Shown here: positions 1,236 through 63,694 of the stretch, one piece after another
Position numbering within the stretch: the stretch's first letter is position 1
Layout of the letters: every line of letters starts with the position of its first letter
Origin: Salibacter halophilus
Lineage (GTDB): Bacteria > Bacteroidota > Bacteroidia > Flavobacteriales_G > Salibacteraceae
Assembly (NCBI RefSeq): GCF_008806325.1
Contig: NZ_WACR01000004.1
Coordinates: 124,001 to 188,000, forward strand
Length of the DNA: 64,000 bases
Reading direction: 5' to 3'
The notes under the pieces: model-generated
Told to the model about the DNA's origin: nothing
The model's input: the letters and a program-made list of their open reading frames with translations, nothing else
Databases searched by the model: none
Translations under genes and position numbers: made by a program

Positions 1236-1262
1236 GGTCAGAGCCGATTTTCGGTTCTGACC
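1236..1262. repeat. Inverted pair of GGTCAGANCC repeats forming a hairpin between proB and proA
   Basis: A forward copy (1236-1245) and a reverse copy (1253-1262) face each other. With the adjoining bases they form a 12-bp stem with one G-T wobble (GGTCAGAGCCGA against TCGGTTCTGACC) and a 3-nt loop. No T-run follows on the minus strand, so it is not a strong classical terminator of proB. It could attenuate transcription or stabilise the upstream RNA. Inverted uptake sequences forming intergenic hairpins are known from Neisseria; the analogy is inference. Confidence 0.85.
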
Positions 1263-1268
1263 ATCACA

Positions 1269-3220: not shown

Positions 3221-4607
3221 TTACAATTAAATTGTAGTGGCTGAAGTAAGTGCGGTAAAACATGTTCTTTTCAGGAATTGTGATATTCTCATCAGAGATC
3301 CGATAGATGTAAATAAACCTGAGATCAAGCCCTTTGAGCATCCCGTTGAAAGAATATTGGATATCAGATGTCAATTGGCTGTAAGGCGGAATTGCGTACT
3401 TGTTATTCTCAAGATCTTTTTGGGATACTGAAAAAATTCTGTTGTAAGCAAAGCCGGCATTTATATCACCGTATTTGGAGTTGTTGATACGGTAGTTCGC
3501 TTTTAGCTTCATCACATCAGAATTACCAAACCCGTCCTGCCAGCTTCTCGGTTCTGAAGTGAAGAAATTGTCTCTTCCCAATTCTCTCGGATAGAGAAAG
3601 CGACCTCCTTCAAAGGTATGCAGGTAATTCCCTGTGAGTAACCAGTTTGAAAGTTTTGTGCCGAGTTTTGCTGCAATGATATTTGCGTTTTCACCGGGTT
3701 GGTAGTAGCGATGGTTATAATCGAGCTGCTCTTGTTTAGGGAGTGCATGCTGAAATACGTACTGTACACCTGCCAATATATTTTCATTTTCGTAGTGTCC
3801 TTCAAGCCAGTGTATACCGTATATTCGGTCAAGCCAGTTAGTCCATAAGTTTACGCTCCATTTTTTCCCAATTTTATGTTGATGGCCTGCAACAACCAAT
3901 GCTCTTGTATCACTTTTCTTGCGGTAATTCGATATTGTTCCATCAGGTTGTAATCCTCTACCAATAATTCCGATTCCATCATTCAAAGAATACCAGTTTG
4001 TCATTCCGCGGGATCCTATTCCGTTGATTACTCCCAAAAAAGATTTGCCTTTTGCATGTTGATATTCGCTCCATATTCCCTGATAAACGAAAGGCATCAT
4101 TCGACCATCTAATTGCTGGAGAAGCGGTTCCTGATCAATATTTTGACTTCCAATTGTAACACGAATGTTTTCCTGTTCATAGCTGAGGTATAACTCATCA
4201 AAGCGAGTGTGTGTTTTATCAAAATTCGTTTCATTTAAATCGTAAAGTTCACTTTCCCATTTAGCACTTAATTGTGGGCTTGAATCGTTATACAATTCTG
4301 ATGAGAATGTTTTGAATGCGATGTTTCCTGTTACACCCAGACTAAAACCATGGAATTTTGCTGTTTGAAATTTTAGAGAACCGCCAGTGGCATTTGTCCA
4401 GTAGTTTGGAAGGGTGGAGTGGTGAACGGTTGCCATGAAGTAATTTCGGATCTGACCATTAAATTTACCTTTTGAGAAGAATTCACTCAGGTTTTCGATA
4501 TCGGTAGAGTCTGATTGTGAATTAGCGTGTGTTTCTAACGGGGTAATTAGAAGGAAGAAAACGTAAAAAAATAGTAATTTTTGTGAGTATATTTCCTTTA
4601 ATGACAC
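3207..4607 (-). CDS. Outer-membrane porin, OprD-like
   Basis: Probable outer-membrane beta-barrel channel. An N-terminal signal peptide (hydrophobic LLFFYVFFLLITP, cleavage near THANS) is followed by KGKFNGQIRNYFMATVH and TGGSLKFQTAKFHGFSLGV, matching the start of OprD-family barrels (short plug, then strands rich in alternating aromatic residues). The protein ends in phenylalanine (LIVNVNF), as barrel proteins do. At 466 residues the size fits the family. The start is a GTG (4605-4607); no in-frame ATG exists before residue 59. A GGTCAGANCC copy lies at 4448. The substrate is unknown. It is divergent from mscL. Confidence 0.75.
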   Translation of the reverse strand: MSLKEIYSQKLLFFYVFFLLITPLETHANSQSDSTDIENLSEFFSKGKFNGQIRNYFMATVHHSTLPNYWTNATGGSLKFQTAKFHGFSLGVTGNIAFKTFSSELYNDSSPQLSAKWESELYDLNETNFDKTHTRFDELYLSYEQENIRVTIGSQNIDQEPLLQQLDGRMMPFVYQGIWSEYQHAKGKSFLGVINGIGSRGMTNWYSLNDGIGIIGRGLQPDGTISNYRKKSDTRALVVAGHQHKIGKKWSVNLWTNWLDRIYGIHWLEGHYENENILAGVQYVFQHALPKQEQLDYNHRYYQPGENANIIAAKLGTKLSNWLLTGNYLHTFEGGRFLYPRELGRDNFFTSEPRSWQDGFGNSDVMKLKANYRINNSKYGDINAGFAYNRIFSVSQKDLENNKYAIPPYSQLTSDIQYSFNGMLKGLDLRFIYIYRISDENITIPEKNMFYRTYFSHYNLIVNVNF

Positions 4608-5141: not shown

Positions 5142-6866
5142 TCAAATTAAACTGAATAGGTTGGGGAAATTAAGAGAGGTGAACTTCATATTCACCTCTT
5201 CTTCATTGTCAGATTCTGAGTCTGCTGAGTCAGTATCCTGTAGATCTGGGGAAGACTCAACTTCTTCTTTTTCAAAATCCTTGCTCCAAAGCCCTTTATC
5301 AGTCATTGTCCAATAGTGACCAATCATTTTTCCATCGTACGTATTCGTAACGTTAGGAATATCATCGAGCATATTTCTAAGTCCGTTTTCAAAATAAATT
5401 GTCTTTCCCAACGGAACAAATAGCTCAATATCAATTTGTTGTTTTCGCCACTGATCATCTCTTGGGAACGTAAGCATTTCGCTGAAAAACAATCCGCTAC
5501 CGTTTTGGTAATATTCGTAATTGATTTCACCGGCTCTTTTTTGAGCTTCTTCTATCGAGCCTCCGTTTGAGGCCTTGATAAATTCCACTTTAAATGCCGA
5601 GTCACTAGAGCGGTGAACATGTAAGTCAATATCACCTAAATACACGTGGTGATCATCCAGGTTAAAAGGATAGTTTGAACGAAATGAACCCGTATTCAGG
5701 TTTATTTTTGACTTTAGTTTGTTTTCGGTCAGAGCCAAAATCAACGTATCGCCAGCTGTCTTATCAATCGTTATTTCCTCAGTGATTTCGGCATGACTTT
5801 TAAAATCACCACCAGTTGAAAGACCAGCATAAATAGTAAGGATCATACCCAGAATAAAAGCTCCCAGAGATCCCCATGCAACCTCTTTTTTGATCGATCT
5901 CCTGGTGAGCAAAATCCAACCGACCATGGTCAATACCAGTAGTGGAATTCCTGCTACCAAAATTGTCCCTGTTATGGCTGAAAAGTAGTCAAATCCATTA
6001 CTGAACAGTAGAGAACGCAATTCACTACCCGCTATAGAAGAGAACTCTTCAGCTTCGCCAAACATAATTGGACCATAGTTTGCGCCAAAGATTCCCATGA
6101 TAAAGGCAAACAGACTAACAGAGCCTGCTATGAGTAGTAGTACGCCCAGTACTTTTCCCAGGGCGCTAAAAAACAACTTGAGGATACGGATTAAAAACTG
6201 GCCGAGGTTTTCGAAAAATTGCCCAACTTTTCCTCCAAAATCCTTTTCTGATGCACTATCGCGAAAAGAGTTGAATTTTTCATTTACGTTTTGAAAACCT
6301 TCTTCAACCTCTTTCCCGATTGTATTAAAATTTACGGGTTCCCCCTTCATCTCTAATTTTTCAGCAGAAGTACGCGCTTTTGGGATAATAATCCACAATA
6401 AAATGTAAAGCAACAAGCCAAAACCGTAAATGATAAAGGCTAATCCGAGAGCCAGTCTTAACCAAATTGGACTGATTCCAAAGTAGTGACTGATACCGGC
6501 ACAAACTCCCCCAATAACTCTACTATCGGGGTCGCGGAAAAGTCGTTTTTTGGTTTTGCGCGTTTGGCTCTGACCGTGAAATTCCTCCTGTGTTTGTTCC
6601 TCGGGATCAATGAAATCCTCTGGCTGACCCATAGTAGCAATAACTTCATCGATGTCTTTATTCGTTACGACTTCACGCGTTTTGCCCAGTTTATCCTGCA
6701 ACATTTCGGCAATGCGCGATTCAATATCAGTCATGATTTCATCTCTTCCTTCAGAAGCGCTGAAATAGCCTTTTATCTTGTTGAGGTAGCGATTCAGTGT
6801 TTGGTAGGCATCCTCATCTATGCTAAAAACGATGCCGCCTAAATTGATTGAGAGTGTTTTTTTCAT
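5142..6866 (-). CDS. PspC-domain envelope stress membrane protein
   Basis: Residues about 1-90 form a soluble N-terminal region (MKKTLSINLGGIVFSIDEDAYQ) rich in acidic helices. A PspC domain follows (about 107-165: KRLFRDPDSRVIGGVCAGISHYF plus a hydrophobic helix), then several membrane segments (about 220-345), and an extracytoplasmic beta-rich C-terminal domain resembling the LiaF/DUF4097 type. PspC proteins sense or protect the membrane in phage-shock-type responses. The start at 6864-6866 is preferred because an upstream start at 6908 would run into the PadR gene; the gap to that gene is 7 bp. Together they form the PadR-PspC operon common in Bacteroidota. GGTCAGANCC copies lie at 5727 and 6566. 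Confidence 0.8.
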   Translation of the reverse strand: MKKTLSINLGGIVFSIDEDAYQTLNRYLNKIKGYFSASEGRDEIMTDIESRIAEMLQDKLGKTREVVTNKDIDEVIATMGQPEDFIDPEEQTQEEFHGQSQTRKTKKRLFRDPDSRVIGGVCAGISHYFGISPIWLRLALGLAFIIYGFGLLLYILLWIIIPKARTSAEKLEMKGEPVNFNTIGKEVEEGFQNVNEKFNSFRDSASEKDFGGKVGQFFENLGQFLIRILKLFFSALGKVLGVLLLIAGSVSLFAFIMGIFGANYGPIMFGEAEEFSSIAGSELRSLLFSNGFDYFSAITGTILVAGIPLLVLTMVGWILLTRRSIKKEVAWGSLGAFILGMILTIYAGLSTGGDFKSHAEITEEITIDKTAGDTLILALTENKLKSKINLNTGSFRSNYPFNLDDHHVYLGDIDLHVHRSSDSAFKVEFIKASNGGSIEEAQKRAGEINYEYYQNGSGLFFSEMLTFPRDDQWRKQQIDIELFVPLGKTIYFENGLRNMLDDIPNVTNTYDGKMIGHYWTMTDKGLWSKDFEKEEVESSPDLQDTDSADSESDNEEEVNMKFTSLNFPNLFSLI

Positions 6867-7207: not shown

Positions 7208-7660
7208 TTATTCTCCTTTTTCAACTGTGAGATCACCATTGATGATCATCACAATTCCACTTCCGTCATCATCCAATCCGATTATGGCGATTTGTGTAAT
7301 ATTTTTTCTTTTCCTGTCAGTTAGAATGTAAGGGTCGTCATCATCTCGATCTTTTTGTTCACGCTTTAGATCAAACTTTTTCGCAATTAACCTGATCTTT
7401 TCTTCCGGGTTGAATTTTCCTTCAAACTCTCCATCACCAATTATGGTCAGATCCACAGATTTAATGTCGCCCTCAATGCGTTCCATTTCATCGCGGATGT
7501 CTGTTTCAACGTCAATTTCATTGAGTTCATCACTCTCGTAGCTGAAAGAGAGTTTAGTTCCGTACTCGCCCAGTATTTTGACGATATCGTTAGCGCTAAC
7601 CTGTGCAACAGCCGCAAAGCTGCTGACTAAAGTTGCAATTGATAAGAGAAGTGCTTTCAT
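7208..7660 (-). CDS. Small secreted protein of unknown function, first gene of the PadR operon
   Basis: 150 residues with a signal peptide (MKALLLSIATLVSSFAAVAQ) and an acidic mature part (SFSYESDELNEIDVETDI, EQKDRDDDDPY). I recognise no family; the size and position resemble DUF4252-type proteins but I cannot confirm this. It lies 4 bp ahead of the PadR gene and is transcribed from the operator-controlled promoter at 7684-7713, so it should be co-regulated with PadR and PspC. Confidence 0.7.
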   Translation of the reverse strand: MKALLLSIATLVSSFAAVAQVSANDIVKILGEYGTKLSFSYESDELNEIDVETDIRDEMERIEGDIKSVDLTIIGDGEFEGKFNPEEKIRLIAKKFDLKREQKDRDDDDPYILTDRKRKNITQIAIIGLDDDGSGIVMIINGDLTVEKGE

Positions 7661-9300: not shown

Positions 9301-9885
9301 ATGAAAAAGCTGATTGCACTCATGCTGGCCTTATCTACTGTAGCAGTATTCAGTTGTAATAAAGATGATGATGACGATCCCACACCAACATCAAATAACA
9401 ATAATAATTCTAACAATAATAACACTGTAGAGCGGCCTGCATCATACATTGTCATAGAAGGGGATTCATTCTTTGCTACGATGAATCGGCAAAACCCTGC
9501 TCAAAACGCTTTTCGTTACCAGTTTAATTTTAGCTCAGTCGATCAACTTGATCAAACCAATAATGATGGGCAAACGGAGTCGACAATTGGTATGGTTCTG
9601 ACCATGGCTGAAAAACCATCAAGCTCTATTCAGGCACCATTGACTACAAACCGATTTATCAAAGCAGGGGAAGACTCGGCTAACCTCTACTTTTCGTTTT
9701 TCATCAATACCGGACATCCTGAAGAGGGAAAAAACTATTTGAGTCCGCGCGGTGATGTTTTAGATGTTGTGATATCAAATGGGGATCTGACAACTGACTT
9801 ACCAGCGATGACGCTGATAGATGAAGGAGATAATAGCAGAACGCTAGACTTATCTGCCGGTCACCTCGAAGTTTCAGGTTGGTAG
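9301..9885 (+). CDS. Lipoprotein of unknown function
   Basis: 194 residues. A type II signal peptide with lipobox VAVFSC (Cys 19) is followed by an Asp run and an Asn-rich linker (NNNNNSNNNN), the usual spacer of Bacteroidota surface lipoproteins. The rest looks like a single beta-sandwich domain and resembles the next lipoprotein only in its NKDDD start. A strong terminator follows at 9908-9937. A GGTCAGANCC copy lies at 9594. Confidence 0.65.
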   Translation: MKKLIALMLALSTVAVFSCNKDDDDDPTPTSNNNNNSNNNNTVERPASYIVIEGDSFFATMNRQNPAQNAFRYQFNFSSVDQLDQTNNDGQTESTIGMVLTMAEKPSSSIQAPLTTNRFIKAGEDSANLYFSFFINTGHPEEGKNYLSPRGDVLDVVISNGDLTTDLPAMTLIDEGDNSRTLDLSAGHLEVSGW

Positions 9886-10494: not shown

Positions 10495-12390
10495 ATGGAT
10501 TTACGAATTAAGTCTTTTGATGAATACAAAGAAAAATACGAGCAAAGTGTAAAGGACCCCAAAGGCTTTTGGGATGAAATAGCACAAAAATTCACATGGC
10601 AAAAGCCTTATGATGAGGTGCTCGACTGGAACTTTACCGATCCTGATGTCAAGTGGTTCATCAATGGAAAACTGAATATTACAGAGAATATACTCGATGC
10701 AAATCTTGAGAAACGCGGAAATAAATTAGCTCTTATCTGGGAGCCCAATGATCCGCGTGAGCGCTTTGTTCGTTGGACATACCGCGAGCTATACGAAAAA
10801 GTAAATCAGTTTGCCAATGCACTCAAAAATCAGGGGATTCAAAAGGGTGATGTGGTAGCTATTTACATGCCCATGATTCCGGAACTCACTGTTGCAGTTT
10901 TAGCTTGTGTGCGAATTGGAGCCATTCACTCGGTAGTTTTTGCCGGTTTTTCTGCTCATGCGTTAGCCGACCGAATCAACGATGCAAAAGCTAAAATGGT
11001 GATTACAGCTGATGGTCAGAACCGTGGCCACAAACAAATTCCACTCAAGCGTGTCGTGAATGAAGCTGTCCAAAATTGCGACTCTATCGAAACAGTTATC
11101 GTTTACGATCGTGTTGGCTGGAGCCCCGAGATGAAGGAAGGTCGGGACATCTGGTGGCACGATGCTATCGAGGGAATGGGATCTGACTGTGAACCGGAGC
11201 AGATGGATTCTGAAGATATTCTCTTCATTCTGTACACATCGGGCTCAACGGGCAAACCAAAAGGAGTTGTTCACACAATTGGCGGCTACATGGTGTATGC
11301 CGCGTATTCTTTCCAAAATGTTTTCCAGTATGAAGAGAGTGATATTTACTGGTGTACAGCTGATGTAGGCTGGATTACAGGACACTCTTACATTATTTAT
11401 GGTCCGCTTTTATCAGGAGCCACAACCATGATGTTTGAAGGTGTTCCAACATATCCTGATCCTGGCCGCTTCTGGCAAATTTGCGATAAGCACGGAGTAA
11501 ATCAATTCTATACGGCTCCTACAGCGATCAGAGCCTTGATGGCACATGGTGAAGATCATGTGATTTCATACAGCCTGGATTCATTGAAAGTCCTGGGTAC
11601 AGTTGGCGAGCCGATTAATGAAGAGGCATGGCGCTGGTATTATATTCACGTTGGAAAAGAAAAGTGCCCTATCGTAGATACATGGTGGCAAACAGAAACA
11701 GGCGGAATCATGATTTCAGGACTTGGAGAACACACTCCGCAAAAACCGGCTCACGCTGGTTATCCGTTGCCCGGTATTCAGCCGGTATTGCTCGATCAGG
11801 ACGGGAATGAAATTACTGAGAATGGAAAAGAAGGATTGCTGTGTATGAAATATCCCTGGCCTTCAATCCTCAGAACCACATACGGAGATCACGAACGTTG
11901 CAAGCTCACTTACTTTTCTACATTCAAAGATCATTACTTCACCGGAGACGGAGCAAAACGCGATGAAAACGGAATGTACAGAATCATCGGTAGAGTAGAT
12001 GATGTGATCAATGTATCAGGACACCGTTTTGGAACGGCAGAAATTGAAGAAGCGATCAACTCAAACGATAAAGTAGTGGAGTCTGCGGTTGTAGGATATC
12101 CTCACGAAGTGAAAGGACAGGGAATTTATGCTTACGTAGTGTGTGATAATATTCCTGAAGACAAAGAATCTGCTCGTGGTGAGATCGTAGAAACAGTAGT
12201 TGAAGAAATCGGTAAGATTGCGAAACCTGAAAAAATTCAGTTTGTATCTGCATTGCCAAAGACGCGTTCAGGAAAAATCATGCGCAGAATTCTGCGCAAA
12301 ATAGCAGAAGGCGAACCGGATAAATTGGGAGATACATCAACACTTCTCGATCCAGATGTTGTGGAAGAGATTGTTGAAGGTGCTTTGTAG
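10495..12390 (+). CDS. acs: Acetyl-CoA synthetase
   Basis: Converts acetate, ATP and CoA to acetyl-CoA through acetyl-AMP in the cytosol. The 631 residues match the length of the family. Signatures: the P-loop-like YTSGSTGKPKG (247-257), WWQTETGG near 400, the hinge region YRIIGRVDDVINVSGHR, and the C-terminal PKTRSGKIMRR with the lysine (about 594) that is acetylated in homologues. It is a single-gene unit with its own terminator at 12417-12446. It feeds acetyl-CoA pools that the Paa pathway in this window also supplies. Confidence 0.97.
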   Translation: MDLRIKSFDEYKEKYEQSVKDPKGFWDEIAQKFTWQKPYDEVLDWNFTDPDVKWFINGKLNITENILDANLEKRGNKLALIWEPNDPRERFVRWTYRELYEKVNQFANALKNQGIQKGDVVAIYMPMIPELTVAVLACVRIGAIHSVVFAGFSAHALADRINDAKAKMVITADGQNRGHKQIPLKRVVNEAVQNCDSIETVIVYDRVGWSPEMKEGRDIWWHDAIEGMGSDCEPEQMDSEDILFILYTSGSTGKPKGVVHTIGGYMVYAAYSFQNVFQYEESDIYWCTADVGWITGHSYIIYGPLLSGATTMMFEGVPTYPDPGRFWQICDKHGVNQFYTAPTAIRALMAHGEDHVISYSLDSLKVLGTVGEPINEEAWRWYYIHVGKEKCPIVDTWWQTETGGIMISGLGEHTPQKPAHAGYPLPGIQPVLLDQDGNEITENGKEGLLCMKYPWPSILRTTYGDHERCKLTYFSTFKDHYFTGDGAKRDENGMYRIIGRVDDVINVSGHRFGTAEIEEAINSNDKVVESAVVGYPHEVKGQGIYAYVVCDNIPEDKESARGEIVETVVEEIGKIAKPEKIQFVSALPKTRSGKIMRRILRKIAEGEPDKLGDTSTLLDPDVVEEIVEGAL

Positions 12391-12446: not shown

Positions 12447-12465
12447 GGTTCTGACCAATATTGAA

Positions 12466-16082: not shown

Positions 16083-16475
16083 TTAAATATATTCTAAAAG
16101 ACTGGAAATCTTTGGAATGAAAATTATGAAGCCAATTATTATTGCGGTCAGAGCCGAGATTAAAACAGCTCCCGCACTCAAATCTTTTATCCGTTTGATG
16201 AGCGGATCCGTTTCTTCAGTCAGGTAGTCACAAATATTTTCCAAAGCTGTGTTTACGATTTCAGTTACCAGCACAAAACCAATTGCGATTGTAATCAACA
16301 TCCATTCAACTGAGCTGATGTCAAAGTAGAGTCCGCCAATGATGACAATGACCGCTGTTAGAACGTGCACCTTTGCATTGTCTTCTTCACGAAAAAGTGT
16401 TTTGATGCCCTGGATGGCAAACGAAAAGCTTCTGATTCTGGCTCTGACCGAAAAAGGCTTTGTGTTTTTTGACAT
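16083..16475 (-). CDS. dgkA: Diacylglycerol/undecaprenol kinase family protein
   Basis: Small inner-membrane lipid kinase of 130 residues with three membrane helices. The family signature TEIVNTALENICDYLTEE (about 71-88) includes the catalytic glutamate and the ExxxD metal site, and DPLIKRIKDLSAGAVL follows. In bacteria of this type the substrate may be undecaprenol rather than diacylglycerol; the sequence does not decide. A minus-strand TATCTTTG lies 19 bp upstream (16494-16501), a likely -7 element. The short gene carries two GGTCAGANCC copies in opposite orientation (16146 and 16440). Confidence 0.85.
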   Translation of the reverse strand: MSKNTKPFSVRARIRSFSFAIQGIKTLFREEDNAKVHVLTAVIVIIGGLYFDISSVEWMLITIAIGFVLVTEIVNTALENICDYLTEETDPLIKRIKDLSAGAVLISALTAIIIGFIIFIPKISSLLEYI

Positions 16476-21086: not shown

Positions 21087-21096
21087 GGTCAGAACC
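21087..21096 (+). repeat. Intergenic GGTCAGANCC copy
   Basis: Forward copy GGTCAGAACC preceded by a T-run, 12 bp after the stop at 21075 and 28 bp before the ATG at 21124. One of four copies outside genes. Confidence 0.9.
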
Positions 21097-26728: not shown

Positions 26729-26741
26729 ATAGATTATAGTT

Positions 26742-27035: not shown

Positions 27036-27056
27036 TAAATCGAATTTTTAATTATT

Positions 27057-44994: not shown

Positions 44995-45444
44995 ATGTTG
45001 CAGCGCATTCAAACAGTTTATTTGTTCATTAGTATTATCGTAGCAATTGTAGGAACGTTTTTGCCAATTTTCTATGCCACAGGACCTGATAATATGTACA
45101 GCGTCACTGCGTGGGATTTCTCTTTTGATTCAACTTCACTCATTGGGGGGTGGCCGGTTCTCATCCTGTTTATTTTATTTATCGTGATGAATGGAACCAC
45201 GATTTTTCAGTTCAAAAGTCGCACATCACAAATGACACGTATTAAGGCCAGCTATTTGGTTTTGGCTCTGACCATTGTTGCCCAGGGAGTGCTGTGGTAC
45301 TTTTGGAAAAATGAAGTTCAACTGGAAGTAATCCCGGGTTGGAGTTTTATCATTCCGGCTGTTGCTTTTGTCTTCAATGTACTTGCTTACAGGGCGATCA
45401 AGAAAGATGATGATCTTGTAAAATCTGTAGACAGATTGCGCTAA
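44995..45444 (+). CDS. DUF4293 membrane protein
   Basis: 149 residues, four membrane helices, with the family start MLQRIQTVYLFISIIVAIVG and the last helix FIIPAVAFVFNVLAYRAIKKDDDLVKS. DUF4293 genes are commonly found divergent from rho in Bacteroidota, as here; function unknown. The stop codon directly abuts the convergent phosphoesterase gene (0 bp). Confidence 0.9.
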   Translation: MLQRIQTVYLFISIIVAIVGTFLPIFYATGPDNMYSVTAWDFSFDSTSLIGGWPVLILFILFIVMNGTTIFQFKSRTSQMTRIKASYLVLALTIVAQGVLWYFWKNEVQLEVIPGWSFIIPAVAFVFNVLAYRAIKKDDDLVKSVDRLR

Positions 45445-46003: not shown

Positions 46004-46795
46004 ATGAAAAAGCGATACGCGCTCATACTTGCTTACGATGGTGCCAATTATTGCGGTTGGCAGATTCAGCCCGGTGTTGAAACAGTGCAGGGAACGCTGG
46101 AAAGTGCGCTCTCTACAATTTTACGGCAAGAAGTTGCTGTAATCGGTTGTGGTCGCACTGATACGGGTGTTCATGCCTCTTATTACGTGTCGCATATTGA
46201 GGCAGAGCTAAACAGGTCTGTTGCTGATTTGCATTATCATTTGAATAATTACTTACCTGCCGATATTGCGATTATCGATCTGCAGGAAGTGAGTAGTGAT
46301 TTTCATGCCAGATTTAATGCTGTTGAGCGCGAGTATCAGTATTTCATTCAATTGGAAAAGAATCCGTTTATGCATCGATACGCTGCGTTTAGTCACCAGG
46401 AACTGGATATAGAAAAAATGAATGAAGCGGCTAAAAAATTACTCATAGCTGAGGAATTTGGTGCATTTTGCAAAGCGGGTAGTCAGAACCAAACGAACAT
46501 TTGTGATGTTCGGGTAGCAGAGTGGGATGTGAATGAATCACAACTCACTTTTACGATAAGCGCAAACAGGTTTTTGCGGAATATGGTGAGAGCCATCGTT
46601 GGTACGCTTATAGAAGTGGGAAGAGGAAAATTAACTGTGGCGGATTTCGAAGAAATTATAGATTCGCAGGATCGTACAAAAGCAGGTTTCTCGGCTCCGG
46701 CCAACGGTTTGTTTTTGACAGATGTTAAATATGGATCTGACCAATTGAATACAACAAATTACAAACGAGTGAAGTTAGGTTTAAATGGCAAATAG
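46004..46795 (+). CDS. truA: tRNA pseudouridine(38-40) synthase
   Basis: 263 residues. The catalytic region GCGRTDTGVHASYYV contains the invariant Asp, and the N-terminus YALILAYDGANYCGWQIQP is typical. Further motifs are FNAVEREYQYFI and FLRNMVRAIVGTLIEVGRG. Modifies uridines 38-40 in the anticodon arm. The start at 46004 fits the family; the frame is open further upstream but overlaps the divergent gene. The 3' end overlaps the ABC transporter gene by 11 bp. Confidence 0.95.
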   Translation: MKKRYALILAYDGANYCGWQIQPGVETVQGTLESALSTILRQEVAVIGCGRTDTGVHASYYVSHIEAELNRSVADLHYHLNNYLPADIAIIDLQEVSSDFHARFNAVEREYQYFIQLEKNPFMHRYAAFSHQELDIEKMNEAAKKLLIAEEFGAFCKAGSQNQTNICDVRVAEWDVNESQLTFTISANRFLRNMVRAIVGTLIEVGRGKLTVADFEEIIDSQDRTKAGFSAPANGLFLTDVKYGSDQLNTTNYKRVKLGLNGK

Positions 46796-50951: not shown

Positions 50952-53774
50952 ATGTCTAACCCCTTAAAGACAAATTTGGTTGATGATCTTTTGTCTTTTT
51001 TAACGAGTCACTCTGAACTGATTCATGACTTGTATGAAAAGATTGAGAAGGATTCAAATGGCAATATTGACCAGAGCGAACTGTTGGGTAAACTCATCGA
51101 ACAAATATCTGATGTTGATGAGGGTGAATTGTCTTTGCTCAACCCCAGGATAGCTTACAGTATTCTCAAAACAATACCCGGAATCGTTTTCATGTACGAT
51201 TTGGAGAAGAAAAAGAGCTTTTACATCAATAATCAAATCAATAATATTCTTGGGTATTCTGATTCTGAGCTCAATATTGATGAACGATTTAATGAATTGA
51301 TTCACCCTGATGATGTTGAAGTATTTGCTCGTTTTTTTCCAAGATTATTGAGTTTGGGGGAAGATGAAGAAATGGAGTATTCCTACCGGGTAAAGCATGC
51401 TAATGGGAGTTATGTTTGGCTCTCTGTAAGGGAAATTGTTTACAGTAGAGATGAAAATGGACTCCCTTCCAAAACAGTTGGTATTGCGCAAGATGTTACT
51501 GATCAGGTGAGTAAAAAATACCGATTGAGGGAAAGTGAGATTTTGCAAAATGATTTGTTGAATAACACGAGTCAAAAATTCTTTTATCTCGATAAGAATG
51601 GCAGAATTCTCACATTGAATGAAAAGTCCAAAAATGAGTTTGTTGCCGCTAATAAAGTAGATCCAATTGGGAAGGTGTTGGGAGAATTTTTGCCAGATCT
51701 TCAAAGTGAAAATTTTTGGCATCATTTTAATCGCGCTTTAGCCAGTGAGCTTACGGTTTATGAGGATTTTCTCGATTACGGGCCAAACGAACGAAAATAC
51801 TACCGCATTTCGATGAACCCGGCTCTCGATGAAGAGGGAAGTGTGAGAGCTGTAACAGTTGAGCTCACTGAAATGACTCAGGAAGTTCATTATCGGGAGA
51901 GACTGAAAAGAAGCCAGGAAAGGCTTCAATTTGCGCTGGAGAGTTCGCGCGATGCTGTTTGGGAATGGAATTTAGACAGTAATGAAGTTTTTTACACCGG
52001 CTTTTTAGTGGATATACTCGGTTATGATAAACAATCAGAACCGTTTAACCGAAAAGATTGGCTCAATCACATTCACAGGGAAGATAAAAGACGTGTTTTC
52101 AGTGAGTTTGAGAAATTGTTGAAAGGGCAACAGGATCGTTATTCTCATGAATACCGGTTGAAAGGAGACGATGATAGTCATCGCTGGATCCTGGATAGAG
52201 GTCAGGTTGTGGAATATCGCGATTCCAGGCCTGTTCGCATCATCGGTACATTTACAGATATAACCGAAAGGATTGAACAGGAACAACGACTTCAAAAAAG
52301 CGAACAGCGTTTTCAGCTCGCAGCTAAGGGGATGGGAGTAGGTATTTGGGACTGGAACATCAAAACCGAAAGGTATTACTGGTCACCACAACTTTTTGAA
52401 ATACTGGGTTACGAGCCATTTGAATTGAAGTCTGGATTCGAAGGGATAGAAGGGTTTATGCACCCAGATGATAAACCCAAAGTAATTGCAACTCTCGCCC
52501 GGTATTTTAAGAAACAAATTGATGAATTCAGTGTTGAATATCGAGTGAAACATAATAATGGTGATTACATTTGGGTAAGAAGTAACGGACAGGCAGTTTT
52601 CAACAACAAAGGTGAGCCTAAGCGAATGGTGGGCTCTCTCGAAAATATTCACGATGGTAAAGTTGCACAAATTGAGTTGTCAAAAAGACAACAACTCCTC
52701 AACAATATCAATCAAAACATCAATGAAGGCATTTACCGCAGCACACCCGATCAAAAACTCCTCTACTGTAATGATGCTTTTTTGAGACTTTTTGGTGTCG
52801 AAAATCTATCTGAAGTTGAAAAGCAGGATTTTAGCACAATCGTGTTTTACGCTGATGGTAATGATCGTGAGACTCTTCGCAATGAACTCGAACAAAAGGG
52901 CTATCTCAATAACTGTGAAATAAAGTACCAAAGGAGAGATGGATCAACTTTTTGGGCACTTTTAAATTGCTCGGTCGGAACCGATGAGGAAGGCAATATG
53001 GTGTACAACGGAGCTATTCGTGATATTACGGAAATGAAAGGTATTAGGAAAGAGCTCATCGAAGCCAAGGAACGAGCCGAGGAAATGAACAAACTCAAGT
53101 CGAGCTTTTTGGCAAACATGAGCCATGAAGTACGCACCCCTATCAACGGTATTTTGGGTCTGACCGAGATAATTGAAGAAACCGATGATCTCAGCCAGCT
53201 CAAGGAGTATTCTGAAATGATCAGGGAGAGCGGAACCCGCTTATTGAATACGATTAACAGTATTCTGCATCTTTCCCAGATGGAGGCTTCATCGGGTAAT
53301 TTTGATCTTAACGAAATCGAGCTGAATAACTTTGTGAAAAGCAATGTGAACCTGTTCACCATGCCGGCTCAAAAAAAGAATATCAAACTCACATTTGAGC
53401 CACATAACAAGGATGCTAAAGTTTTAGGTGATGAATCGATGATCGATCAGATCCTCAATAACCTCATAGGTAACGCAATCAAATTCACTGATGACGGTGA
53501 AGTGAAGGTTTCCATTTCTGAAAAAACGAGAAGAAAAAAGCTTTTCTATCAGATTGCAGTGAGTGATACCGGAATAGGCGTATCAGAAGACTTTTTACCG
53601 CGTATTTTCAACGAGTTTGAGCAGGAGAGCTCAGGTTATGCCCGCAAGTTCCAGGGAAGCGGATTGGGTCTCGCAATCTGTAAAAAATACACTGAATTAC
53701 TGGGTGGAACCATCAAAGCCGAATCCAAAAAAGGTGAATGGACCAGGTTTATCGTGCAGTTGCCAGCTAAGTGA
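50952..53774 (+). CDS. Multi-PAS sensor histidine kinase
   Basis: 940 residues, no membrane helices, so probably cytosolic. About five PAS/PAC units can be read (about 65-180, 195-310, 325-440, 450-570, 580-695). HisKA follows with the phospho-accepting His 725 in NMSHEVRTPINGILG, then HATPase_c with the N box NNLIGNAIKFT, DTGIGV and GSGLGLAICKK. No receiver or output domain and no response regulator next door, so it is an orphan kinase. TACATTTG at 50916-50923 is a likely -7 element. A GGTCAGANCC copy (53156) falls at LGLTEI just after the H box. Confidence 0.9.
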   Translation: MSNPLKTNLVDDLLSFLTSHSELIHDLYEKIEKDSNGNIDQSELLGKLIEQISDVDEGELSLLNPRIAYSILKTIPGIVFMYDLEKKKSFYINNQINNILGYSDSELNIDERFNELIHPDDVEVFARFFPRLLSLGEDEEMEYSYRVKHANGSYVWLSVREIVYSRDENGLPSKTVGIAQDVTDQVSKKYRLRESEILQNDLLNNTSQKFFYLDKNGRILTLNEKSKNEFVAANKVDPIGKVLGEFLPDLQSENFWHHFNRALASELTVYEDFLDYGPNERKYYRISMNPALDEEGSVRAVTVELTEMTQEVHYRERLKRSQERLQFALESSRDAVWEWNLDSNEVFYTGFLVDILGYDKQSEPFNRKDWLNHIHREDKRRVFSEFEKLLKGQQDRYSHEYRLKGDDDSHRWILDRGQVVEYRDSRPVRIIGTFTDITERIEQEQRLQKSEQRFQLAAKGMGVGIWDWNIKTERYYWSPQLFEILGYEPFELKSGFEGIEGFMHPDDKPKVIATLARYFKKQIDEFSVEYRVKHNNGDYIWVRSNGQAVFNNKGEPKRMVGSLENIHDGKVAQIELSKRQQLLNNINQNINEGIYRSTPDQKLLYCNDAFLRLFGVENLSEVEKQDFSTIVFYADGNDRETLRNELEQKGYLNNCEIKYQRRDGSTFWALLNCSVGTDEEGNMVYNGAIRDITEMKGIRKELIEAKERAEEMNKLKSSFLANMSHEVRTPINGILGLTEIIEETDDLSQLKEYSEMIRESGTRLLNTINSILHLSQMEASSGNFDLNEIELNNFVKSNVNLFTMPAQKKNIKLTFEPHNKDAKVLGDESMIDQILNNLIGNAIKFTDDGEVKVSISEKTRRKKLFYQIAVSDTGIGVSEDFLPRIFNEFEQESSGYARKFQGSGLGLAICKKYTELLGGTIKAESKKGEWTRFIVQLPAK

Positions 53775-55277: not shown

Positions 55278-56285
55278 TTACTTTTTGAAATAATCCAACT
55301 CTGCAGTTACCGGATCAAACACAAAGTACTGAACAACAATAAAGTTGGAGTCGTTCAGTGTCGCGTAAAAGCGGTCCAGGTCGTATTCGATTTCGTTACC
55401 ATCGAGGTCTTCACCGTTTTCGATTCGCTTTTTGAATGTTTTAACTGTCGTTTTTTCTCCCGCTGTATCTGTCACGGATACGATCATTTCAGGAGTTTGT
55501 GCAGCCACGCTGTCCTGGAAACTCTGTGCTTCTATTTCTTCAAAGCTCTCGAAATTGCGTTCCTTGAACATGCTCACGTAGCTGAGGAGCTTCGGTTTGT
55601 CGATGTTTTCGACTTTTTGGCTCTGACCGTTATACAATTCAAAATTGTTGTTGCCGAGGCTTTTAATGGTGAAATCTTTTTGCGGTTCATCTGGGTATTT
55701 CGTGCTGATTTCAGCGATTTCACCAAAAGCGTATTTGAAAATATGTTTCTTGCGCCAGTCGTTTGAGCGCACGATAAAACGCGGAGTCAGATAGCCGTAA
55801 AATCCTTCAACGTGCATGAGGTAAGGGCGAGTCGCATTTTCCAAAAGCATGTAGTTTCCTGTGTGGTCGATGTTGCTGGAGCCCACATAAAACGTTTTGA
55901 AAGGCTTGTCGTGATTGTTGTTTTTGTAAATTTCAACTTTGATTCCTTCACTCGCGATTTTCTTCAGAACCGTTTCGTATTTGTTTTTGGAAACAGGTGC
56001 CTGAACAGCCAACTGATTTATCGTACTCAACAGCACATTCACGCCAGATTCTCTCGCTTCAAAATCTCCGTCAACGATCCAGTCATTTCCCTTTCTCTCA
56101 AGAGTAACATCGTTGCCGTTTTTATCGGCTAAAAACAACTTGGTAATGTTCCCGGTATCCTCAACGGCAAAAGCTGTTTGGTCGCTGACGATCGTTGAAC
56201 TCGTATTTTTTTGAGAAAAATAGATGGCAACTCCGGCAATGAGTGCCAAAACTAATATTGAAATGATGGTGTTTCTTCTTCTCAT
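55278..56285 (-). CDS. DUF4340 protein, gliding operon
   Basis: 335 residues with one N-terminal membrane helix (IISILVLALIAGVAIYF) and periplasmic repeats of the DUF4340 type (NDWIVDGDFEARESGVNVLLSTINQL). The position 3 bp after gldG suggests it acts with the GldFG transporter. Function unproven. Confidence 0.85.
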   Translation of the reverse strand: MRRRNTIISILVLALIAGVAIYFSQKNTSSTIVSDQTAFAVEDTGNITKLFLADKNGNDVTLERKGNDWIVDGDFEARESGVNVLLSTINQLAVQAPVSKNKYETVLKKIASEGIKVEIYKNNNHDKPFKTFYVGSSNIDHTGNYMLLENATRPYLMHVEGFYGYLTPRFIVRSNDWRKKHIFKYAFGEIAEISTKYPDEPQKDFTIKSLGNNNFELYNGQSQKVENIDKPKLLSYVSMFKERNFESFEEIEAQSFQDSVAAQTPEMIVSVTDTAGEKTTVKTFKKRIENGEDLDGNEIEYDLDRFYATLNDSNFIVVQYFVFDPVTAELDYFKK

Positions 56286-56288
56286 CCT

Positions 56289-58001
56289 CTAAGTGTATAG
56301 TTTTTTGCGAATGTAAAACTGAATGACTCCAAAAATCAAGATTAATATTACAGGAGCAGCTGTATTGAGAATTTGCCAAAAACGTCTTTCTCTTTCTACT
56401 CGTGGTTTGTCGAGTAATCGCATCTTGAAATCTTTTGATCGGGCAGTGATTAAGTTGTCATCTTCAAGGAGGTAATTCATCGCGTTGAGGACAAATTCTT
56501 TGTTCCCGTATATTTTGCGCGTGTACTTGTCATAGCCCAGCGTGAAGAACTTTTCTTCACTGCGGTTCACATTGTTTCGTATGATATCAGCATCAGAAAC
56601 TACAAGCATTTTGGTTGGTAAACTCTTCTCCTTGAAGCGGAATTCAGGATTCTCCGTAATTTTTCGTGTGAGTCTGTTTTTGAAAACGCTCTCAAATTCT
56701 CCTTCAAGCAGCGCTGCTACAATTTGGTGCGAGTTGTTGTACTGTCTTTGATCGGGCTCGTGACGCAAGATATTCAGAGCCACACGATGCGGAGCACTGG
56801 CAACTTTCGTGTATTTTGAGGTTCTGAGTAGTGGTGTCTTTTTGATAGCAGTATCACCAACGAGATCAATGCTACTCGCAAACTGTGTCTTGATTGCATC
56901 CAGATTGTGAACAATAGGATGTTGCGATTGCGGAAATAAGAGCGGATAGTAATACCACGGGAAAAATTCCTGCTTGGGCTGATTTCCAACCATTCCAGTA
57001 ACAACCGGAATAGGAACTGCCTGCAAGTCGAGGAGGAAGTCTGAATTGATGCGAGCTCCGTATTTGAAAAGCTGATCACTCAGATTAACATCTTGCGGAA
57101 CACCAAGTGTAATGCCTTTTTTACGAATACTGTCCATGCTAGCTGTAACAGGTTCTACAAACCACATTACTTTTCCGCCTTTCATGATGAACTGGTCGAT
57201 CACGTATTTATCTTTCTCGCTGATTTTCTCTTTAGGACCGGCAATGACGATAGCATCGTGGAGTTGAAGTGCATCGAGCTGACCATTAATTCGCACCGAG
57301 TCAACGATGTAGAAATCGCTCAGTGATTTTTGGATATCAGCTGTTTCGAGATCATCTAATTCTCCGTGTCCTCGGACAAATCCAACACGTTTTTTCGCGT
57401 ATTGTGTCATCACCTTCACCTTACTCATCAACTCGTATTCGAGCTGTTGAATCGAGTTGTTGAGCATCACCTCAGGCTTGGTTTGCATTTGGCTCTGAAG
57501 CAATTGAACAGCTTCTTCCTGATCTCTGTAAGTAACAATAGCACCCGGGAAAATAATTTGCTCGCTGCGCTTGTCGCCTTCATTGACGCGAACGTTCGTG
57601 TATTCCAGGCCTTTGTCAGAAAGCTTTTGATAAAACTGTTTCCGCTTTTCTTCATTGGGATTAGCTGACGGATCGATGAACTCGTACTGAATATTGTCGC
57701 CTGCGTAGGCTCTAAACTCATCGAGCATTTCCTGTGTGGCATCGCGCAATCGTTCATAGCCGGCCGGCAGATCACCTTCCAGGTACACTTTGATGAAAAC
57801 AATGTCTTCAAGTTCCTGCAGTTTTTCTGTTGTAGCATCAGTGAGTGAGTAGCGTTTATCTTCGGTCAGATCCAGCCTTGTGAACGTCATTGTGGCGAGG
57901 TAATTCAACAGCACAATAGCAGCCACAATCGACACAAACTGAATGATATCATTGCGTTTGCGCTGGTTCGATTTATTTTGTTTGCTTGTATCCTTCGCCA
58001 T
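56289..58001 (-). CDS. gldG: Gliding motility ABC transporter component GldG
   Basis: 570 residues from the ATG at 57999-58001. One membrane helix near the N-terminus (IIQFVSIVAAIVLLNYLATMTF), then RLDLTEDKRYSLTDATTEKLQELEDIVFIKVYLEGDLPAG, a large ABC_transp_aux region, and a C-terminal helix (NTAAPVILILIFGVIQFYI). With GldF and GldA it forms an ABC system needed for gliding in Flavobacterium johnsoniae. gldA is not in the window. Start is 2 bp from the gldF stop. Confidence 0.93.
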   Translation of the reverse strand: MAKDTSKQNKSNQRKRNDIIQFVSIVAAIVLLNYLATMTFTRLDLTEDKRYSLTDATTEKLQELEDIVFIKVYLEGDLPAGYERLRDATQEMLDEFRAYAGDNIQYEFIDPSANPNEEKRKQFYQKLSDKGLEYTNVRVNEGDKRSEQIIFPGAIVTYRDQEEAVQLLQSQMQTKPEVMLNNSIQQLEYELMSKVKVMTQYAKKRVGFVRGHGELDDLETADIQKSLSDFYIVDSVRINGQLDALQLHDAIVIAGPKEKISEKDKYVIDQFIMKGGKVMWFVEPVTASMDSIRKKGITLGVPQDVNLSDQLFKYGARINSDFLLDLQAVPIPVVTGMVGNQPKQEFFPWYYYPLLFPQSQHPIVHNLDAIKTQFASSIDLVGDTAIKKTPLLRTSKYTKVASAPHRVALNILRHEPDQRQYNNSHQIVAALLEGEFESVFKNRLTRKITENPEFRFKEKSLPTKMLVVSDADIIRNNVNRSEEKFFTLGYDKYTRKIYGNKEFVLNAMNYLLEDDNLITARSKDFKMRLLDKPRVERERRFWQILNTAAPVILILIFGVIQFYIRKKLYT

Positions 58002-60193: not shown

Positions 60194-61353
60194 CGCGCAA
60201 CGAACAGATAAAATGGTTTAAAGAGCAGGAAACGCCTTTTTACTTTTACGATTTGGAAAAACTCCGCATGGTGCTCAAAGCCCTCGATCACGAAATGGAT
60301 CAATACGGCTATCACATGCATTATGCGCTCAAGGCAAATGCGAACTTCAAGGTTCTCACCGAAATGATCGACCACGGTTACGGTGCTGATTGTGTGAGTG
60401 GAGGAGAAGTAAAACGTGCACTGGAAGCGGGATTCGATCCGCAGAAAGTCGTGTTTGCCGGAGTAGGTAAGAGCGATAGCGAGATTAAATACGCGCTGGA
60501 AAATGAAATCGGTTGTTTCAATGTTGAATCGCTCGAGGAACTCGAAGTGATCGAGGAGCTCGCAAAAGAGATGAATAAAACCGCAAACATCGCCCTTCGT
60601 CTCAATCCGGATGTGGACGCCAAAACGCATCACTACATCACGACTGGTTTGAATGAGAATAAATTTGGGTTAAATCCAAACGATCTCGACAGCACGCTGG
60701 CTCTTCTCAAGAAATCGAAAAATTTGACATTCAAAGGAATTCATTTTCACATCGGTAGTCAGATCACGGAGTTGAGTGCGTTCAAGCACCTCTGCCTCAA
60801 AGCGAACGACTTTTTGCAGTGGTTCCGCGATCACAAACTCAAAGTAGAGTGGGTGAATGTTGGTGGCGGACTCGGAATCGATTACGAAAATCCGGATGAA
60901 AAACTCATCCCTGATTTTGCGAACTTCTTCCGTATTTTCCACCAGTTTTTGAACCTGGAAAACGGTCAGAGCCTGCATTTCGAACTCGGTAGGGCAATCG
61001 TAGCTCAAATGGGTGAGTTCATAACACGTGTGCTCTATATCAAAAAAGGGATTTCGCGCTCTTTTGCCATTGTAGATGGCGGGATGAGTGAACTGATAAG
61101 ACCTGCACTTTACCAGGCTTTTCACAAGATTGAAAATCTTTCTCAAAAAGGCGACCCCGATCACAAGTACGATGTGGTGGGCCCCATTTGTGAAACATCA
61201 GATACTTTTGGAAAACAAGTATCTTTACCCAAAACCAAACGAGGCGATTTGATCTCGGTCAGATCCTCAGGTGCTTACGGAGAAGTAATGGCGAGCCAGT
61301 ACAACCTCCGCGGACCTCTAAAAATTTTAACGTCAGATGATGAAATGGATTAA
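60190..61353 (+). CDS. lysA: Diaminopimelate decarboxylase
   Basis: PLP enzyme making lysine from meso-diaminopimelate. 387 residues. The PLP lysine is Lys 48 in HYALKANAN, followed by GADCVSGGEVKRALEAG, GIHFHIGSQI, NVGGGLGIDY, ELGRAIVAQMGEFITRVL and the CETSDTFGKQ substrate motif. Overlaps lysC by 4 bp and the peptidase by 17 bp. Two GGTCAGANCC copies (60964 and 61257) encode GQS and VRS, in two different frames of the repeat. Confidence 0.95.
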   Translation: MTRNEQIKWFKEQETPFYFYDLEKLRMVLKALDHEMDQYGYHMHYALKANANFKVLTEMIDHGYGADCVSGGEVKRALEAGFDPQKVVFAGVGKSDSEIKYALENEIGCFNVESLEELEVIEELAKEMNKTANIALRLNPDVDAKTHHYITTGLNENKFGLNPNDLDSTLALLKKSKNLTFKGIHFHIGSQITELSAFKHLCLKANDFLQWFRDHKLKVEWVNVGGGLGIDYENPDEKLIPDFANFFRIFHQFLNLENGQSLHFELGRAIVAQMGEFITRVLYIKKGISRSFAIVDGGMSELIRPALYQAFHKIENLSQKGDPDHKYDVVGPICETSDTFGKQVSLPKTKRGDLISVRSSGAYGEVMASQYNLRGPLKILTSDDEMD

Positions 61354-63694
61354 TATTCTTTTTGCGTTGTGTCTTTTCCAATCGGTTACGGCACAGGAGT
61401 GGACTTGCTATTTGAACGATGAAAAAGCACAACCGCGTGAGCGACTTGTCGATTTCAAACACATTGAGCTCGATATTGAAATTATGCCTTATCAGCATTT
61501 GGTGAAAGGAAGAGCTACGTTTGATATTGAACCACTGGCCATTCCAACTGATTCTATTTGGCTGGATGCTCCCGATATTTCGGTTTTGGGTGTGAGTTCT
61601 GACCAAAACGACTCTATAGCTTTCACGCAAAACCGCGAAGGAATAGCGATAAAATTAGAGAGCCCTATTCAGCCGGGCGGAATGTTCAAATTGTATGTCG
61701 ATTACAGCGCTCACCCGCAAAAAGGATTGTATTTCGTTGGTTGGAAAGACTCAGCCGATGTTCGTCAAATTTGGACGCAGGGACAGGGAATTGACAACCG
61801 TCACTGGCTCCCACATTTTGATTACATGGCTGAAAAGCAAACGACTGAGTTGATCGTGAAGTTTCCAAAAGGCTATCCGCTCTTGAGCAACGGGAAACTG
61901 GTTTCTAAAAAGGATGATGGCGATAAAACAACGTGGCATTACAAGATGGAAAAGCCACACTCCAGTTATTTGTTGATGTTGGCTGCGGGAACTTACGAGA
62001 GTGATACGATTACTAATGCACGCGGACTCGAAATTTCGCAGTGGTATTATAAAGGTCAGGAAGATATGGTTCCTTACACCTACAAAGGAACTAAAGAAAT
62101 GACAGAGGTGATCACCGACTTCATGGGAGTCGATTATCCGTGGGATCGCTACAGCATGGTACCAACACGAAATTACCTTTACGGAGGAATGGAAAATACT
62201 ACGGCTACCATTTTTGCTGAGACTTTTGTTTGTGATAGCCTTCAATACCATGATAAAAACTTCGTGTATGTCAATGCGCATGAATTTGCTCACCAGTGGT
62301 TTGGCGATTTAGTGACATCAGTAAGTCCGGAAGCTCACTGGATTCACGAAGGTTTTGCAACTTTTTTCCATCATTACTGGCTTGGCGAGTTCTTTGGAAA
62401 AGATGAATACTACAAACAATTAGATATTTATCGTTCAGCGAGCTTTGCTGCCAGTGAGAAGAACATCAGGCCGATATCGCACAGTGGAGCGGGAAGTGCG
62501 CGCCACTATTTCAAAGCATCAATCGTGATTGAAATGCTGCGCCAGGAACTGGGCGAAGACGCTTTTAGGACAACGCTCACCGAGTTCCTTAAACGCTACG
62601 CCCACAAAACGGTGAGCTCTGAAGATTTCCTCAGAACCGTTTACGATGTTACCGGAAAACCGATGAACTGGTTCTGGGATCAGTGGGTTTACAGAGGAGG
62701 AGAACCAATGGTCAGAGCCGAACTCACCAAAAAATGGGGTAAATCATATCTCATTTTAGAGCAAACACAACCCGATTCATTCGGAACATTTCGCCTGCCG
62801 ATGAACATGAAGTTCGCGGTTGATGGATCTGACCGTGAAATGGGCATAGATTTTAATGCCAGAAAAGACACGGTTGAACTTTCTTTTGATGTTAAAGATG
62901 TGGATTATTTTATTCTGGATAACGCGCACAAACTGCTGATGCAGGAAGATAAGCAACAAAAAGAGGAACAATGGTTGAATCAGATGCTCAATGATAACCA
63001 TCCGATGGACGTTGTGCAGGCGATGCGAAATTTGGAACTCACAGATTACGATAAAGAGTTGAAAAAACTCTTTGAAAAGAGCGAATTTGATTTTGTGAAA
63101 ATCAAGCTCATTTCGATGGTCAGTGAGAATAAAGAGTTGGTTGACGATTTATTGAAATTAGTTAAAGAGGAATCTGTAGAGGTGCGCAAAGCTTATGTGG
63201 AAAACTGTAAAGTTACTAATGTGGGTTTCCTCGAAACTCAATTGATTGCACCGAGCTATGAGTTGCGCAGGGAAGCTCTGAAAAAAATAATTGAAGCAGA
63301 TCGCGAGAATGCTGAAACCTACATGCGCATCACGGAGGAACTAAAAACAGATCACCAATTTTTGTACAGGATGGATTGGCTTCATTTGGCTCATTCGGTA
63401 GAGTACATTACTGAGGAAAAGTTCATCAGCGAAATGGAAAAATATTCTGGTCCGGGATATGATTTTGTGACGCGAAATAGAGCTTTGATGATTTTAAGGG
63501 CTAAAAATATCCAATCTGAAAAAGTTATCGACAACGCGATGGATGCCGCTCAATCTTTCAACAGGAGCTTGCGCAGCAGCGGTTGTCAGTACTTGAAAGA
63601 CCTTGATGAAGACACGAGAAAAGAACTTTTGCAGAAAGTTATGCTGAGTAGCAATAGTTTGAAAATTAAAAGGTTAGAGCGTTGTTTGAAATAA
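61337..63694 (+). CDS. M1-family metallo-aminopeptidase, secreted
   Basis: 785 residues with a signal peptide (ILFALCLFQSVTAQ). N-terminal beta domain, then the catalytic domain with YGGMEN (GGMEN at 283-287) and the zinc motif HEFAH (315-319) with the distal Glu 338 in HWIHEGFA. The C-terminal 240 residues are helical repeats. Cleaves N-terminal residues from peptides, probably in the periplasm. It overlaps lysA by 17 bp, an odd partner functionally. GGTCAGANCC copies at 62709 and 62825 are inverted, about 110 bp apart. Confidence 0.92.
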   Translation: MMKWINILFALCLFQSVTAQEWTCYLNDEKAQPRERLVDFKHIELDIEIMPYQHLVKGRATFDIEPLAIPTDSIWLDAPDISVLGVSSDQNDSIAFTQNREGIAIKLESPIQPGGMFKLYVDYSAHPQKGLYFVGWKDSADVRQIWTQGQGIDNRHWLPHFDYMAEKQTTELIVKFPKGYPLLSNGKLVSKKDDGDKTTWHYKMEKPHSSYLLMLAAGTYESDTITNARGLEISQWYYKGQEDMVPYTYKGTKEMTEVITDFMGVDYPWDRYSMVPTRNYLYGGMENTTATIFAETFVCDSLQYHDKNFVYVNAHEFAHQWFGDLVTSVSPEAHWIHEGFATFFHHYWLGEFFGKDEYYKQLDIYRSASFAASEKNIRPISHSGAGSARHYFKASIVIEMLRQELGEDAFRTTLTEFLKRYAHKTVSSEDFLRTVYDVTGKPMNWFWDQWVYRGGEPMVRAELTKKWGKSYLILEQTQPDSFGTFRLPMNMKFAVDGSDREMGIDFNARKDTVELSFDVKDVDYFILDNAHKLLMQEDKQQKEEQWLNQMLNDNHPMDVVQAMRNLELTDYDKELKKLFEKSEFDFVKIKLISMVSENKELVDDLLKLVKEESVEVRKAYVENCKVTNVGFLETQLIAPSYELRREALKKIIEADRENAETYMRITEELKTDHQFLYRMDWLHLAHSVEYITEEKFISEMEKYSGPGYDFVTRNRALMILRAKNIQSEKVIDNAMDAAQSFNRSLRSSGCQYLKDLDEDTRKELLQKVMLSSNSLKIKRLERCLK

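Follow-up and report, generated by a model that had tools for sequence, protein, structure and literature searches.

The 64-kb window analyzed here, the whole stretch from position 124001 to 188000 of contig 4 of the Salibacter halophilus genome, carries 36 perfect copies (19 forward and 17 reverse) of a short dispersed word, GGTCAGANCC. We propose that this word functions as a DNA uptake sequence (DUS), with a 5′ flank of T at −4, A/T at −2, and C/T at −1 as part of it, and that biased transformation maintains it; its sequence properties suggest this reading, to which we assign a probability of roughly 75%. The initial annotation of the window had counted the same 36 copies, considered them to be in large excess, and interpreted them as a self-recognition sequence for natural transformation. 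Our recount gave the identical number, dinucleotide-preserving shuffles of the window contained 0.16 copies on average (maximum 2), and the earlier figures for the excess were right in essentials. The whole genome (hereafter G000; 3,122,189 bases in 32 contigs) contained 1,482 copies, 739 forward and 743 reverse, in 3.12 Mb, compared with 3 forward and 1 reverse copies, 4 in total, of the reversed word as a control. A second-order Markov model predicted 1.7 copies in 464 kb of G000, where 211 were observed. We conclude that the excess in the window is a property of the whole genome, in which this non-palindromic word, within the 9–12 base range of its class, is enriched more than 100-fold. The interpretation as an uptake sequence was supported at the genome level, where nearly every prediction tested came out as expected. 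It is drawn from the copy number, the strand balance, the tolerance of coding sequence, the dialects, the turnover of sites, the small number of near-misses in the core, and the word-free gaps. In its genomic features, GGTCAGANCC conforms to the class formed by the DUS and the uptake signal sequence (USS).

The motif and its sites were characterized in detail in stretches of G000 totalling 564 kb (about 18% of the genome), which contain 263 copies. The 5′ flank was characterized by T at −4 (0.70), A/T at −2 (0.87), and C/T at −1 (0.95). The core consisted of GGTCAGA followed by A, G, or T, with C being scarce (0.03), and then CC; downstream, only a mild preference for A at +12 was seen. Within the window, the base preceding the motif had been described as C or T in 35 of the 36 copies, a figure that our recount reproduced. 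Variants with A or T in place of one of the first two G residues occurred in 74 and 75 copies, respectively, and since they share the flanks of the perfect copies, we take them to be probable looser versions of one site. Substitutions of the inner core were scarce, with 4 each at two positions, and no copy in the 564 kb was substituted at the third base (T). Such scarcity of singly mismatched copies is a pattern of uptake sequences and has been attributed to restoration by preferential uptake (PMC1939737). No homology of the flanks was found beyond about 6 bases around the word. Thus, the word does not represent a repeat family.

In the window, 33 of the 36 copies are located in open reading frames (ORFs), 16 in sense and 17 in antisense orientation and in several reading frames, and 3 lie outside. 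The earlier statement that there is no bias with respect to transcription holds, as does the number of 17 antisense copies; the sense count of 15 had to be raised to 16, with the 3 remaining copies outside ORFs. In the characterized part of G000, 92% of the sites were in ORFs (108 sense, 135 antisense), compared with 92% coding DNA. The encoded peptides differ (GQN, VRS, SEP, GSD, LT, and others), as had been noted for the in-frame readings in the window, and no copies were found in the antisense frame that would yield a TGA stop. Strand counts were even in each contig and in 50-kb blocks, whichever sign the GC skew had. When the leading and lagging strands were assigned by the sign of the GC skew, they carried about 128 and 135 sites, respectively. 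The word is therefore dispersed within and between genes without strand or replication polarity, which excludes a polarity of the type known from FtsK-orienting polar sequences (KOPS) or Chi and confirms the argument that the initial annotation had based on the window.

DUS are depleted in acquired DNA and genomic islands (PMC7371117). In a 400-kb contig of G000, the four longest word-free gaps measured 10–16 kb and all coincided with accessory-looking regions: one encodes RHS-like and large secreted proteins, two consist of orphan genes in arrays, and the fourth is an island for type I restriction-modification. With the longest gaps as the starting point, GGTCAGANCC is thus, in a descriptive sense, under-represented in acquired islands. 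Its density was 0.17 per kb in the decile of lowest GC content and 0.42–0.65 per kb elsewhere. The two orphan-gene arrays on contig 1 (L084:4180-11526 and L090:6650-14020) are word-free arrays of the integron cassette type, with all genes on one strand and attC-like repeats of about 130 bases between them; one of them contains a cyclase adjoining a weak match to a Pycsar effector. The restriction-modification island, likewise without the word, encodes HsdM, HsdS, an AAA ATPase, and a phospholipase D (PLD) nuclease (L094:13018-19961).

A survey of the order (42 genomes from 18 genera) revealed an excess only in three genomes of one genus, with 1,482, 824, and 486 copies, respectively. The other genomes contained 2 to 28 copies of GGTCAGANCC. 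Among 396 genomes of the phylum, the next highest count was 163, in a genome with a raised count of the reversed control. The search in related genera, which had been suggested together with the original interpretation, hence places the excess in a single genus among both sets of genomes. Both congeners, G001 and G002, retain the core in a different dialect (TTTTGGTCAGARCC against TTWYGGTCAGADCC). In G002, which is about 70% identical to G000 in alignable DNA, the core is preceded by TTTT, and the free base is A or sometimes G; the dialect of G001 matches that of G002 (18 sites). G000 prefers C at −1 and has T, G, or A at the free base, and the difference from G002 was highly significant at both positions (p 7e-21 at −1 and p 1e-34 at the free base). 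Lineage-specific dialects thus surround a constant inner core. In 62 kb of alignable DNA of G000 and G002, only 1 of 19 sites was shared, and the remainder differed mostly by point substitutions. As the word is kept while its sites change, we attribute its maintenance to a genome-wide drive or selection on the word rather than to local regulatory sites.

Similar words occur elsewhere in the Bacteroidota. Scans of 20-kb loci of named relatives brought up another dispersed word, in the forms CTTCGGAAA and CTTCGGAAG, which has a T-rich 5′ flank. This CTTCGGAAR-type word was found in Ulvibacter, Psychroserpens, and Arcticiflavibacter, with a maximum of about 1,170 copies in a genome. Genome-wide, CTTCGGAAA occurred 1,166 times in Ulvibacter antarcticus, 1,170 times in Arcticiflavibacter luteus, and 1,134 times in Psychroserpens damuponensis; further Psychroserpens genomes had 864 and 304–453 copies, Marixanthomonas (313) and Salegentibacter lacus (234) were intermediate, and most others had roughly 5–130. 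The strands were balanced, and copies were present in ORFs in both senses. The loci concerned are L032, L045, L064, L025, and L038 (Psychroserpens, Arcticiflavibacter) and L200–L202 (Ulvibacter); the word is limited to part of the Flavobacteriaceae, and in Ulvibacter its dialect tends towards G as the last base. A third word, TTTTGGGGGGATG, was confined to one species (G037) of the window's own order. G037 has 151 + 150 copies of TGGGGGGATG, whereas its congener G035 has only 2 and no other genome more than 8, and the form TTTTTGGGGGGATG was seen in the G037 loci L195, L261, and L262. Like GGTCAGANCC, the other words are dispersed and strand-balanced, and all three have a T-rich 5′ flank beside a G-containing core. 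We read these words, as the best explanation, as DNA uptake sequences of independent origin in the Bacteroidota that biased transformation maintains. We see about even chances that several lineages independently evolved sequence-specific uptake with T-flanked words of their own (GGTCAGANCC, CTTCGGAAR, GGGGGGATG) and with outer-membrane receptors unrelated to type IV pilins. In 40-kb samples of the sister genera G003, G011, and G012, no words of their own stood out. Candidate words in G061, G417, G160, and Arcticiflavibacter (GCGCTCGT) turned out to be repeats. A palindromic word, AGTGNCACT, was present at 13 sites in 40 kb of G066 (L229, L230; mostly AGTGKCACT on one strand); lacking a T-rich flank, it is perhaps a candidate for a word resembling the highly iterated palindrome (HIP1) of cyanobacteria. 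In Robertkochia sediminum (L034), GGTGATCAC occurred 7 times in 21 kb, with two copies at one palindromic place.

Among the alternatives to an uptake sequence, the one that survives best, though we consider it unlikely, is a binding site of a cytoplasmic protein that organizes or segregates the chromosome, kept by selection for even coverage. The word is indeed distributed chromosome-wide at about one copy per 2 kb, and the variability of its counts per 4 kb (mean 1.87, variance 1.62) did not exceed that of a Poisson distribution. The sites known to serve such a purpose, however, are far fewer or polar, and GGTCAGANCC has no polarity. Moreover, neither the fast change of dialect, seen among congeners and also among the species of one other genus, nor the position of the longest gaps in acquired-looking DNA fits this explanation. 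We regard it as very unlikely that the word acts as a Chi-like intracellular recombination hotspot that, instead of helping DNA to enter, stimulates its RecA-dependent repair or integration once it is inside. Chi-like sites can be over-represented and lineage-specific; Chi and KOPS are, however, biased to the leading strand, a polarity that the 128 versus 135 sites rule out for GGTCAGANCC, and an enrichment above 100-fold is higher than is known for any Chi sequence.

We consider it even less probable that the word serves as the mark of an orphan methyltransferase, be its role epigenetic or in the licensing of uptake. The model would be HIP1, which is also massively iterated and is tied to orphan methyltransferases (PMC4390886), and uptake that depends on methylation is known from Campylobacter jejuni (cited in PMC7965970). 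GGTCAGANCC, however, is not a palindrome containing methyltransferase sites. Because it is non-palindromic, prefers a T-rich flank, and has shifted its dialect, it resembles a protein binding site rather than the target of a methylase. Restriction sites, furthermore, are usually avoided and not enriched. Finally, neither copying nor coding of a short repeat family, a terminator hairpin, or a protein motif accounts for the spread of the word, although one perfect hairpin is present in the window. Homology of the flanks ends within about 6 bases, close pairs occur about as often as expected by chance, copies in sense and antisense encode different peptides in several frames, and sites arise mostly by substitution.

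If GGTCAGANCC is an uptake sequence, a surface or outer-membrane receptor of the genus would bind it on double-stranded DNA in the medium, and fragments carrying the word would be imported preferentially. One strand would pass through ComEC, DprA would load RecA, and the homologous stretch of the chromosome would be replaced. Since import would favour alleles that carry the word over those that do not, it would spread by point substitution across all recombining parts of the genome and be restored after mutation, with or without a benefit to the cell. Extracellular binding, uptake bias, molecular drive, and the nature of the receptor are what we infer from the genomic pattern. G000 encodes ComEC (6.6e-51) and DprA (2.6e-74), and wordless relatives do so too. 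It also has a Bacteroidota-type cluster resembling a type IV pilus or type II secretion system (T2SS) on contig 13 at 5.3–15.9 kb (L113:5339-15880), encoding a pilin, a prepilin-peptidase-like protein, PilB, a secretin, PilC/GspF, minor-pilin-like proteins, and a bactofilin-like protein. The bactofilin-like gene stands among the minor pilins, and the second half of the cluster is inside a 10-kb word-free gap. According to a published survey of this superfamily, what is called the T2SS in Bacteroidetes groups with the type IVa pilus (T4aP) and has a role in protein secretion (PMC6668835). The presence of type IV pilus and ComEC genes, which the initial annotation had proposed to look for, was borne out only in part: ComEC and DprA are encoded, but the pilus ATPase PilB was not found in the congeners or in other lineages with such words.

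Several observations weigh against the uptake reading. Close inverted pairs numbered 7 among 224 sites, which is chance level without any excess and unlike the terminators of Neisseria and Haemophilus; overuse of such pairs, although not strictly defining for DUS and USS, is thus lacking here. We conclude that the perfect hairpin formed by the copies at 1236 and 1253 is incidental. The gap analysis begins from the longest gaps and is hence descriptive. The G000 pilin matches the Pfam family ComP_DUS just over the cut-off, yet pilins of sister genera without the word match it too, above or below the cut-off, and since wordless sister genera share the match, it does not point to a DUS receptor. 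PilB was found in only one (G000) of the three members of the genus. It was undetected in the word-bearing G001 and G002, which are incomplete metagenome-assembled genomes (83% and 94%), as well as in G037, Ulvibacter (an isolate), Marixanthomonas, Salegentibacter, and two Psychroserpens genomes. For the genus as a whole, the type IV pilus machinery with a minor-pilin receptor (ComP; ComN is predicted) that is expected of DUS and USS was thus not found. Since the distribution of PilB differs from that of the words, a ComP-type pilin is probably not the receptor, and the mechanism is probably not that of Neisseria and Haemophilus. Nor was a receptor found among surface proteins of the Riemerella type: the outer-membrane barrel is absent from G000, G001, and G002, its DUF5689 partner is absent from G000, and the DUF5689 match in G001 and G002 is weak and lies in an unrelated-looking protein.

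Outside the genus, the Riemerella-type barrel occurs in the g15 genomes and in those Flavobacteriaceae that were examined, including carriers of the other two words. The corresponding operon, comprising the barrel, a DUF5689 lipoprotein, and a secreted third protein, was located at L194:2331-7701 and L195:6970-12337, flanked by two genes that, by sequence appearance, resemble endonuclease/exonuclease/phosphatase-fold proteins. When the g15 operons of the word-plus G037 and the word-minus G035 were compared, the DUF5689 proteins shared 59% and the secreted third proteins 51% identity, against 67% for the barrel and 81% for a neighbouring gene. The DUF5689 protein and the secreted third protein may therefore be regarded as candidate specificity factors, as a lead for further work and no more.

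The individual copies in the window were compiled from the word count and, where applicable, the ORF tally. The form GGTCAGAGCC is found on the forward strand at 1236..1245, 5727..5736, 16146..16155, 33146..33155, 60964..60973, and 62710..62719 and on the reverse strand at 6566..6575, 16440..16449, 41842..41851, 45264..45273, and 55619..55628. The first of these lies between the proA- and proB-like ORFs and forms the hairpin with the reverse copy at 1253..1262. The latter belongs to the form GGTCAGAACC, which also occurs at 11014..11023, 20216..20225, 21087..21096, 25164..25173, and 30730..30739 (forward) and at 9594..9603, 12447..12456, 21507..21516, and 35296..35305 (reverse); the copy at 12447..12456 lies outside the listed ORFs. 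The form GGTCAGATCC was counted at 7445..7454, 14732..14741, 22236..22245, 37371..37380, 44433..44442, 57864..57873, and 61257..61266 on the forward strand and at 4448..4457, 18974..18983, 36831..36840, 46733..46742, and 62825..62834 on the reverse strand. Its copy at 44433..44442 is antisense in a rho-like ORF, and that at 37371..37380 is the only one in the window preceded by A. The form GGTCAGACCC occurs at 36354..36363 (forward) and at 26491..26500 and 53156..53165 (reverse). At the aligned loci of G002, the copies at 11014..11023 and 26491..26500 correspond to GGTCAAAATA and TGTCAAGCCC, respectively, so that neither site is shared; the locus aligned to 37371..37380 reads GGTCTGAGCC. At 25763-28398, the window contains a gene cluster whose translations resemble those of the phenylacetyl-CoA epoxidase genes paaA-paaD.

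A literature search for these words, or for uptake sequences in the Bacteroidota, revealed no earlier report, and according to a paper from 2025, the only known cases are two proteobacterial families (PMC12616744). If several Bacteroidota lineages did evolve such uptake independently, self-recognizing transformation would be a recurrent, phylum-crossing trait with fast-changing specificity and not a peculiarity of two families. The same signature in another phylum, based on unrelated words in separate lineages and apparently without a type IV pilus, would mean that sequence-biased transformation evolves repeatedly, and it would bring to light gene exchange among environmental Bacteroidota that has been hidden so far. 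New words, dialect switches, and word-plus and word-minus species within one genus would serve as natural replicates for asking what drives uptake sequences. In practical terms, the words could be used as tags for transforming these bacteria and as markers for foreign islands in their genomes.

Compared with the DUS of the Neisseriaceae (e.g., ATGCCGTCTGAA, with ComP as the receptor), GGTCAGANCC is alike in being a non-palindromic word of 10–12 bases that is enriched, strand-balanced, divided into dialects, and depleted in islands (PMC7371117). Its reverse complement, GGNTCTGACC, shares TCTGA with the DUS, probably by chance. It differs in belonging to another phylum, in the word itself, in the lack of an excess of inverted pairs, and in having 92% of its copies inside ORFs; in addition, the pilus ATPase is not common to all genomes bearing a Bacteroidota word. 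The USS of the Pasteurellaceae (AAGTGCGGT) has a one-sided AT-rich flank, as has GGTCAGANCC. The copy numbers of the two are in the same range, with about 1,300 in H. influenzae (PMC5217627), and both are scarce in singly mismatched copies (PMC1939737). In H. influenzae, 65% of the USS are in ORFs (PMC2346458), which is close to the 67% of sites in G002, so that G000, with 92%, is the unusual one. Unlike the USS, GGTCAGANCC has no terminator pairs and would apparently not work through a conserved type IV pilus.

Within the same phylum, Riemerella is naturally competent with machinery of its own, and R. columbina prefers its own DNA (PMC8459023, PMC7965970). The Riemerella system (ComEC, DprA, ComF, a DUF5689 surface protein, and an outer-membrane barrel; PMC8459023) has ComEC and DprA in common with the genus carrying GGTCAGANCC, from which the barrel is absent. 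No uptake word has been established for Riemerella, in which a k-mer search gave only A-rich words (PMC7965970). Finally, both HIP1 (GCGATCGC) and GGTCAGANCC are massively iterated short words. HIP1, however, is a palindrome that does not vary among the cyanobacteria described (PMC4390886), whereas GGTCAGANCC is non-palindromic, genus-specific, and split into dialects.

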